A DNA stretch of 64,000 bases from Heliobacteriaceae bacterium (GTDB taxonomy: Bacteria; Bacillota; Desulfitobacteriia; Heliobacteriales; Heliobacteriaceae): positions 62,001 to 126,000 of the forward strand of contig JAQWAU010000002.1 of the NCBI GenBank assembly GCA_028707535.1. Direction: 5' to 3'. The translations under genes were made by a program, and so were the position numbers. Under the pieces are notes generated by a model, which saw only the letters and a program-made list of their open reading frames with translations, was not told the origin of the DNA and did not search any database. Positions 42,716 through 45,783 of this stretch are shown here, in pieces. Position 1 is the first letter of the stretch. Every line of letters begins with the position of its first letter.

Positions 42716-43092
42716 AAGATGTTCTTCAGGGTGACGGCTTCTTTTTCCGGGATGTGATTGATCATCAGCCGCAATTCTGCCAATTGACCCAGGGAAAGGG
42801 TTTTTTCTTGCTGGGCAACATATTCTTCAACTTTCCCTAACGCAAATTCGATGTTGTCAATTTCTTGGTGTTCCAGGACCAAGGGCCACCAGCGGCCGAC
42901 TTTTTCCCAGGCAACGTTCAGTTGTTCGGTTTGGGTATTAGCCGGTATCCAACGTTCATTTTCCAAGTTATCGGCAATTTGTTCGATCTGGTGTAACAAC
43001 TCGTCAGCCGAAGTATTCAAGGCATGGGTGGTCCAAACCCCCAGGGAAATGATCGCCCCAAAGATCAGCAATAGAACGATAACTAAACGCAT
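42712..43092 (-). CDS. DUF4363 family protein
   Basis: A 126-residue protein with one N-terminal membrane helix (about residues 3-20) and an amphipathic helical remainder containing EHQEIDNIEFALGKVEEYV and NHIPEKEAVTLKNIF. It matches DUF4363, which usually lies beside a DUF421 gene, as here. ATG 43092 follows GGTAAGGAG. Function unknown. Confidence 0.85.
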   Translation of the reverse strand: MRLVIVLLLIFGAIISLGVWTTHALNTSADELLHQIEQIADNLENERWIPANTQTEQLNVAWEKVGRWWPLVLEHQEIDNIEFALGKVEEYVAQQEKTLSLGQLAELRLMINHIPEKEAVTLKNIF

Positions 43093-43117
43093 GTAAAAAC
43101 TCCTTACCTTATTATCG

Positions 43118-43798
43118 TTAAACCGCTTTTACTTTAGCTTGATAAAAAAGCTTGCCCTGGGTATCTAAACTGGCAAAAAGAACATCTGTGCAGGATTGAA
43201 TACCAATTTTGGCCAGTTCCGTCTCCAGCCAGGCGGGGGTAAGATTAATTTTGGCCAGATTTTTATGGAACACATGGCCATCAATGATCAAGGTGACCGG
43301 CAAGCCTTCATATTCGGTGGCAAGACCCACATCAGCCGGCATGACCGGTCTTTTTTGTGATTTTGGAATTACACTCAGCTCGCCGCTGGTTTCCAGAATA
43401 GCAAATTCAACGTCGGCAAGGTTACTCATGTTTTTGGAACGGAGTTGTTCCAGGAGATCATTGATGTTGTACCTGATCCGGGCCATTTCGGCCTCGACGA
43501 TTCTGCCGTTTTCTACCAGAATGCTGGGTGTGCCACAGACTATACCGCGCACCCGTTCACTCTTGAGGGTTAGATAGGCCAACAAAACCTGGGCAAGGAG
43601 CAACATGAAGATGGGGACCATTCCACTGACTAGTGGAATGCCGGTGTTTTCCATCGGGATGGCGGCCAATTCGGAAAGCATAACGATGACAACCAGTTCA
43701 TATGGTTGTAGTTGGCCAATTTGCCGTTTGCCCATTAAACGCAGGCTGACGACGACAAGGGTAAATAAAATAATTGTCCGGATAATGGCAAGTAACAT
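43118..43798 (-). CDS. DUF421 (YetF/YcaP-like) membrane protein
   Basis: A 226-residue protein with three N-terminal membrane helices, GKRQIGQLQPYELVVIVMLSELAAIPM in the first part, and a cytoplasmic alpha/beta domain (KSERVRGIVCGTPSILVENG, ARIRYNINDLLEQLRSKN, DVEFAILETSGELSVIPKSQ). This is the DUF421 family linked to spores and cell surface in some Firmicutes. ATG 43798 is chosen with AAGGAGAAG upstream; a longer frame to 44152 has no membrane or family similarity. Confidence 0.9.
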   Translation of the reverse strand: MLLAIIRTIILFTLVVVSLRLMGKRQIGQLQPYELVVIVMLSELAAIPMENTGIPLVSGMVPIFMLLLAQVLLAYLTLKSERVRGIVCGTPSILVENGRIVEAEMARIRYNINDLLEQLRSKNMSNLADVEFAILETSGELSVIPKSQKRPVMPADVGLATEYEGLPVTLIIDGHVFHKNLAKINLTPAWLETELAKIGIQSCTDVLFASLDTQGKLFYQAKVKAV

Positions 43799-43882
43799 CG
43801 TCGGCTTCTCCTTGTTCGTTTTTTTCAATGCTTGGGTAACATTTTTTCCAATGGGCTGGTTTTTATGTAGATTGCTTCCGGC

Positions 43883-43907
43883 AAAAAAAAACCACCTACC
43901 GGTGGCG
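43883..43907 (-). terminator. minus-strand terminator after the small membrane protein gene
   Basis: Read on the minus strand: CCACC (43905-43901), loop GGTA, GGTGG (43896-43892), then nine T residues. Confidence 0.85.
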
Positions 43908-44022
43908 AGGACGATAAAGCTATTTTTTTGGTTCCACGCAAGATGTATTTTGGGGTAGGTTGGTCCTTTGGCGGGAATCATCGCTTTCCCCAAACGGTGG
44001 CGGTCAAGGGTGTCCCTATCGG

Positions 44023-44250
44023 CTATTGGGTTGCCGGTAGGGTAGTATCTGCGGCACTTACTGCTCCCGGTTGTGAGGGAACAGTTACCGGTCGTGATGA
44101 TACAAAGGCCATGATAATCAGCGTAAGAAATATTCCGGCGAAGATGGCGCATTTACGCCAGATCTTATCTTTGTCCAGGACAAAAAAAATAGTACCTAAA
44201 AGAGCGAGAACCAAGCCGACGGTACTGCCTAGACCGATTATTGCCCACAT
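44023..44250 (-). CDS. small two-helix membrane protein, unknown
   Basis: A 75-residue protein: MWAIIGLGSTVGLVLALLG, a short charged loop DKDKIWRK, a second helix CAIFAGIFLTLIIMAFV and a Ser/Thr/Pro-rich tail. It is unrecognised. ATG 44250 follows TTGGGAGGC with six-base spacing. A separate terminator downstream suggests its own transcript ahead of the DUF421 genes. Confidence 0.7.
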   Translation of the reverse strand: MWAIIGLGSTVGLVLALLGTIFFVLDKDKIWRKCAIFAGIFLTLIIMAFVSSRPVTVPSQPGAVSAADTTLPATQ

Positions 44251-44485
44251 TTTGTTGCCTCCCAAGAAAAAATTTGTGCTAAGTTACCAGAAAAGGATTC
44301 CCTGGGCCCTTTGTTTGGGGTTAGCATACCTAAGCAATGGCAAAAACATACATCTTTAAAAGGCGGGAACAGCCCGGTCTTGCCGGTGATTGTCTTTATT
44401 TTATCATGTAGGGGCATAATCGCCAAATGACATCTGCCATCATTTCAGCATAAGGTATAGCGAGCTTTGGGGAGGATGATTGCAG

Positions 44486-44848
44486 ATGGTTGATTTTATT
44501 TACGCGGTGCTTTTTTTAGCAGTTTTAGGCGTACTGGCTACCGCGAGTTTTGTGCTCCGGGTATATGGCCGGCCGGTAGCTGAATACTACGCGGCACGCA
44601 CTACTGTAGAGGAGCGGGAGACGGTGGCAAAGTTCGCCCAAACCGCTGTTGTGTACGTCCGGAATCGTTATGGGGACTATCCGGGAGACCAGCAGTTTGA
44701 ATTGGCCTTTAATTGGTTGGTAGAAGCATTGAATAAGCGGGGGATTACGGTTAAGGACGAGGAATTAAAGGCAATGGTAGAACTAGCCTACGAGGAAGCA
44801 AAAGCACTGGGATTTGTGCCTTCCTTGCAAGCAAAGCAAAATACCTGA
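44486..44848 (+). CDS. LLH-family holin-like protein
   Basis: A 120-residue protein with a single N-terminal membrane helix (about residues 4-24) and a helical soluble part: YYAARTTVEERETVAKFAQTAVVYV, FELAFNWLVEALNKRGITVKDEELKAMVELAYEEAKAL. The organisation resembles phage holin LLH family proteins, which also occur alone on clostridial chromosomes. No other phage gene is nearby. ATG 44486 is used; TTG 44480 is also possible after GGGGAGG. Confidence 0.7.
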   Translation: MVDFIYAVLFLAVLGVLATASFVLRVYGRPVAEYYAARTTVEERETVAKFAQTAVVYVRNRYGDYPGDQQFELAFNWLVEALNKRGITVKDEELKAMVELAYEEAKALGFVPSLQAKQNT

Positions 44849-44854
44849 ATGGTT

Positions 44855-45075
44855 TTTCTACAAAACTGGAATGCCGCACATTATGTGTGCAGTTACGCAC
44901 ATGGGACGATAGCCCATTGGAATAAGCAGCTACACCGTTTTCGGCGGTTTAATGTGTGGCATTGCATATCTTGACCCCATAAGACCGGGCATCTAAGGAC
45001 CGAGCCAGCGTTGCAAAAAACAGCCGATTTGACTGAAAAATCGGACTCTGATTAGTTTGAGTCTGGTTTTTTTTT
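44855..45075 (+). ncRNA. structured noncoding RNA, probably raiA-motif class
   Basis: A gene-free segment with dense pairing. ATGCCGCACA (44871-44880) pairs with TGTGTGGCAT (44953-44962) over ten pairs and closes a domain holding TGTGC/GCACA, ATGGG-ACGATAG-CCCAT (44901-44917) and ACCG/CGGT (44934-44948). Then come the unpaired-looking GACCCCATAAGACCGGGC and CTAAGGACCGAGCC, then CCGATT/AATCGG, GACTC/GAGTC and nine T residues (45067-45075) as a terminator. The conserved-looking strings are like the raiA RNA motif as I remember it; this identity needs a covariance search. The boundaries are approximate and no clear promoter was found. Confidence 0.68.
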
Positions 45076-45103
45076 GACTTGGCACGTAATTTGCTTATAT
45101 AAA
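45074..45103 (+). promoter_or_regulatory. promoter upstream of the 45198 gene
   Basis: TTGACT (45074-45079), 18-base spacer, TATAAA (45098-45103), beginning in the T run of the RNA terminator. Confidence 0.6.
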
Positions 45104-45112
45104 AGTATAAAA

Positions 45113-45170
45113 GCAAAATTCCGTTAATGGTGTCTCATTGTGTGCCGGCAAAATGCTGTCGGAATTTTGC
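45113..45170 (+). repeat. 11-bp perfect inverted repeat in the leader of the 45198 gene
   Basis: GCAAAATTCCG (45113-45123) faces CGGAATTTTGC (45160-45170) across 36 bases. It lies between the promoter and the ribosome site, so the mRNA leader would form a stem. No T run follows, so it is not a terminator. Confidence 0.72.
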
Positions 45171-45197
45171 GTTTGAAATTATGGGGAGGGTATTGCG

Positions 45198-45665
45198 ATG
45201 TCAGCACAAAACATATGCCCACTGGCGTTTCCTGGCGAAATCTGTAACTTTGCTAAATCGACTAATGGCCGGTGCAGTTTTATCCGGGGACCGTTTTTTG
45301 AACGGTTTTGCCCGATTGCCGCATTGGAAATGGAAGCCCAAGGGATGATTGCGCCGTATGCGGCACAAAGGTTAAATAAGGTTCGTTTGCAATGTGATCC
45401 TGATGCGAGTTCTGGTGACATTTCCACTTCCTATTTGCTGACGGAAGATGATATCAGGAGGCAGGTGCCCCTAGAACGACGACAGTATATCGGTAGCCGA
45501 AAAGGACTGTTGCGGATCTTGCGGACTTTGGTCCGGGAAGCAAATGCGGTTAGTGAGATGGCCGAAAAACGTGGCTACCGGGGGAAAGCACAAGGGCTGA
45601 AAAAGCAGGTGGATCTAATTGAACGTAATTTAGCGCCTTCGGAGAATCTGCCTTTACCCGGGTAA
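45198..45665 (+). CDS. unrecognised cysteine-containing protein
   Basis: A 155-residue soluble protein. The first 40 residues hold four cysteines: Cys7, Cys16, Cys26 and Cys38 (NICPLAFPGEICNF, GRCSF, ERFCPIAA); Cys66 follows. This may be a metal-binding or redox site. The C-terminal half is basic and helical (RRQVPLERRQYIG, LLRILRTLVREANAVSEMAEKRGY), which would suit nucleic acid binding. No signal peptide. ATG 45198 follows GGGGAGGG. I do not recognise a family. It lies between the structured RNA and comM. Confidence 0.75.
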   Translation: MSAQNICPLAFPGEICNFAKSTNGRCSFIRGPFFERFCPIAALEMEAQGMIAPYAAQRLNKVRLQCDPDASSGDISTSYLLTEDDIRRQVPLERRQYIGSRKGLLRILRTLVREANAVSEMAEKRGYRGKAQGLKKQVDLIERNLAPSENLPLPG

Positions 45666-45783
45666 TAGATGTCTGGCAGGGAGGGAAATTAAGGGAGGAA
45701 AAGAGAGGGAAGTCCCCCGTTTATGTCGAACAGCGTAAGGAAACAAAAAAAGGCGTGGTTCGATAAGCGGGGAGGGGTCGCTG

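Follow-up and report, generated by a model that had tools for sequence, protein, structure and literature searches.

The interval and its neighbours

We examined a 64,000-nucleotide stretch of DNA from a Heliobacteriaceae bacterium (hereafter the window), in which a preliminary description made from the letters alone had singled out 44855-45075 as a large structured RNA gene lying beside comM and dprA. The element lies in the gene-free interval 44849-45197, with no open reading frame of at least 60 aa within 44849-45126; a 41-aa frame (44849-44974) directly follows the stop codon of the upstream gene and shows no evidence of use. The features discussed below are as follows.

44480-44848, plus strand: holin-like membrane protein gene (122 aa, TTG start), directly upstream of the element
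44870-44963, plus strand: folded 5' domain, a 14-bp helix (44870-44883/44950-44963) closing three hairpins
44964-45022, plus strand: weakly structured segment holding the strings GACCCCATAAGACCGGGC and CTAAGGACCGAGCC
45024-45044, plus strand: hairpin CCGATTT/AAATCGG, -7.8 kcal/mol, which excludes the terminator stem
45035-45075, plus strand: intrinsic terminator, a 14-bp stem (45035-45048/45059-45072) running into nine T
45074-45103, plus strand: candidate sigma-70-like promoter for the downstream gene, TTGACT-18-TATAAA, matching at 10/12 (the same scan gave 9 sites of this quality over 63 kb of plus strand)
45198-45665, plus strand: gene for a 155-aa protein of no known family with a four-Cys N-terminus

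The upstream gene belongs to the Phage_holin_6_1 / LLH family (Pfam PF09682, E=1.4e-11, with PHROG holins matching as well) and is a chromosomal single gene whose orthologues are kept in all eight genomes of the bacterial family (8/8). The 155-aa protein, by comparison, possesses homologues in just two genomes of the class, and its block of four spaced cysteines (CPL...C...C...FCPI) is kept in both.

Evaluating the wider neighbourhood, we found that in relatives ~35-180 bases separate yraN from the comM gene that follows it, whereas in the window the gap is ~3.07 kb. This ~3-kb lineage-specific insertion (42716-45783), lacking in relatives, possesses a G+C content of 0.47 against 0.54-0.55 in its flanks, and carries DUF4363 and YetF genes (both on the minus strand), the holin-like gene, the element and the 155-aa gene. 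Placing the element beside comM and dprA is accurate only loosely, as these genes start ~0.7 kb and ~2.6 kb downstream of it, respectively, and its flanking genes are the holin-like and the 155-aa genes. In relatives, no such element precedes comM, none follows the holin orthologues of the eight family genomes, and none precedes either homologue of the 155-aa gene; its closeness in the window to comM and dprA is therefore, as judged from these comparisons, incidental.

Folded domain, strings and terminator

Within the 5' domain, the closing helix gains 2 further bp beyond a G.G mismatch and encloses 66 nt with hairpins at 44884-44901, 44902-44916 and 44934-44948. The helix of ten bp initially described is thus real and does enclose hairpins, but it comprises 14 bp and closes the first ~95 nt only. 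It ranks among the three longest helices with a span of up to 130 in the 64-kb window, no 14-bp helix arose in three shuffles, and the domain as a whole folds significantly better than its shuffles (z = -3.24; 5/500 as good). The 14-bp closing helix is not due to chance.

The core without its terminator is unremarkable against shuffles (z = -0.94). The strings named in the preliminary description are all present (GACGATAG at 44905-44912, GACCCCATAAGACCGGGC at 44973-44990 and CTAAGGACCGAGCC at 44993-45006), and the segment that holds the latter two folds worse than shuffles (z = +1.19). Their "conserved-looking" character found no support, as searches for homologues (see below) returned none. 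Such weak structure in the core, together with strings that have no known relatives and an element for which neither conservation nor a homologue was found, would suit a non-functional spacer or remnant within the insertion, the terminator excepted; against that reading, chance would not be expected to yield a 14-bp helix enclosing 66 nt, and we regard the reading as improbable.

At the 3' end, the nine T residues are confirmed (45067-45075), the terminator tail folds significantly better than its shuffles (z = -3.58) and the stem at 45035-45072 reaches -16.0 kcal/mol. The "double hairpin" that had been described here does consist of two hairpins, but these are mutually exclusive, since the one at 45024-45044 shares bases with the terminator stem; this hairpin is also terminator-like on the minus strand. 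Given the significance of the helix domain and the strength of the intrinsic terminator, the element very likely marks the end of a transcript that carries a stably folded domain.

This pairing of an excluding hairpin with a terminator is a configuration that an attenuator fits too, with the hairpin at 45024-45044 acting as antiterminator and 45035-45072 as terminator in a leader of the 155-aa gene. Consistent with such a leader, CCCCATAA (44975-44982) is an exact 8-nt complement of TTATGGGG (45179-45186) over the Shine-Dalgarno region of the 155-aa gene. We consider this match suggestive, but the duplex energy with the start region of that gene is ordinary (equalled by 29% of random 40-mers), and a match of 8 nt exists for one more start in the window. 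The attenuator reading is further weakened because the promoter-like site follows the terminator and so stands between it and the 155-aa gene, and the hairpin at 45024-45044 may be no more than one arm of a terminator that works in both directions. Compared with known attenuators and riboswitch expression platforms, the element resembles them in that a hairpin and a terminator which exclude each other precede a gene, but differs in possessing no Rfam aptamer, in the promoter-like site after its terminator and in having no counterpart ahead of either homologue of the 155-aa gene. Taken together, we find a leader of this kind rather unlikely. A second long inverted repeat (GCAAAATTCCG/CGGAATTTTGC, 45108-45174) lies past the promoter-like site, in the leader of the 155-aa gene; the overall fold there is no better than shuffles.

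Known RNA families and relatives of the element

The preliminary description had suggested the raiA motif and proposed comparison with Rfam covariance models (raiA, 6S, tmRNA, RNase P). Running this comparison across the full window yielded 0 matches at gathering score, riboswitches and other families included, and the only sub-threshold matches (STnc240, ohsC and narK) were all at chance level. In favour of raiA (ModT) RNA are a similar length, a terminal terminator and the look of a folded ncRNA of the kind found in anaerobes, and the element does resemble RF03072 in being ~200 nt long, intergenic and closed by a terminator. Against it, the element gave no RF03072 match at E<=10 (gathering score 101.3 bits), no match occurred in its own genome (completeness about 88%) and, under strict filters, none of 83 class genomes gave one above the cut-off, whereas the same search, as a positive control, found raiA RNAs above the cut-off in 13 of 150 phylum genomes. 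Aligning the element with these 13 genuine same-phylum raiA RNAs revealed no common sequence blocks or strings, several rows having stood in the unturned strand and the alignment having been read by eye in both directions. The gene neighbourhoods differ as well, in that raiA RNA is usually found next to comFC and raiA (PMC11706538), neither of which flanks the element. At the sensitivity available, these sequence tests refute the raiA reading, to which we assign next to no probability. Among other RNA systems, type III toxin-antitoxin was dropped (no repeats, no ToxN-type match), and for a retron, tracrRNA or omega-RNA the element has no flanking reverse transcriptase or nuclease gene.

Relatives of the element itself were sought by similarity, structure and pattern. 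BLASTN against 61 relatives returned the window's own copy only, and against 399 phylum genomes it returned short pieces at chance level (best E 0.004 per genome); DNA homologues in phages and plasmids were none or at chance level. A single-sequence covariance model (R1), searched against the class and the 399 phylum genomes, recovered the element itself plus weak matches of <=25 bits; these were short, deleted or partial, and in no case did the strings stand where expected. Allowing up to 2 mismatches in a string across 83 class genomes gave at least three matches, and the two nearest that were read lie in coding-like sequence; string scans of viral contigs gave chance matches only. Searching ~85,000 species for the three strings at flexible spacing returned 4 matches, each of which falls within an open reading frame that looks coding. 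The sensitivity of these searches is limited, since a diverged RNA is hard to reach from one sequence and exact cores were required by the string pattern. Within these bounds the element is single copy and restricted to its lineage. The search for covarying homologues that had been proposed for it thus produced neither a homologue nor a covariance hit, and with no relatives found covariation cannot be counted, so that this route confirms neither the structure nor membership of a class.

These results bear directly on the claim of an independent noncoding RNA, of an undescribed class if not raiA. An independent trans-acting ncRNA gene with its own promoter and terminator would account for the gene-free stretch, the significant folded domain and the strong terminator, and the downstream gene indeed seems to possess a promoter of its own. 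Independence gained no support, however, as the best sigma-70-like match directly upstream of the element reaches just 7/12, the core without terminator is not unusually stable, and no homologue was found in the class or the 399 phylum genomes (by BLASTN, single-sequence covariance model, string patterns and synteny) or, by string pattern only, in ~85,000 species. Without a homologue, class status is not supported either. The promoter scan covered sigma-70-like sites, and an unseen promoter for another sigma factor could therefore lie at the start of the element; we view an independent gene as unlikely, if still worth weighing. A further reading, in which the element is an undescribed small RNA of this lineage only and Shine-Dalgarno regions, that of the 155-aa gene included, are blocked by its unpaired C-rich segment, appears to us a doubtful proposition.

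A proposed end of the holin-gene transcript

We interpret the element as the structured 3' end of the transcript of the holin-like gene, perhaps a 3'-UTR-derived small RNA, within a lineage-specific insertion, and give this reading a probability of roughly 0.5. Four lines of evidence lead us to it. Stability beyond that of shuffles is significant for both the helix domain and the terminator. Promoter matches are distributed accordingly, at 7/12 upstream of the element, 9/12 before the holin-like gene and 10/12 after the terminator. The sole terminator after the holin stop codon is that of the element, ~190 nt on, whereas the holin orthologues of relatives possess a terminator soon after the stop. 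Lastly, the element is single copy, lineage-restricted and situated inside the ~3-kb insertion of lower G+C. Weighing against this reading are a promoter that the scan may have missed and the excluding hairpin ahead of the terminator, both discussed above.

Under this holin-transcript reading, transcription would begin upstream of the holin-like gene, continue past its stop codon and end at the terminator (45035-45075), with the 155-aa gene presumably transcribed separately. The 14-bp closed domain may stably halt exonucleases that act 3'-to-5', and the tail of ~200 nt would serve either as a long 3' UTR or, if freed by processing, as a small RNA, in which case the unpaired C-rich string CCCCAUAA would be a natural pairing segment. 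The likeness to 3'-UTR-derived bacterial small RNAs lies in a structured segment after a stop codon, an intrinsic terminator and an unpaired C-rich segment; the difference is that no sequence relative of the element turned up in the searches above.

To summarize, the element is very likely a real structured transcript end that had been placed in the wrong family, with no evidence of a new class. This removes both the raiA claim and the link to competence, neither of which the sequence supports. If the RNA were truly independent, it would add one more lineage-specific small RNA rather than a widespread class, and 44849-45075 remains as a well-defined orphan candidate.
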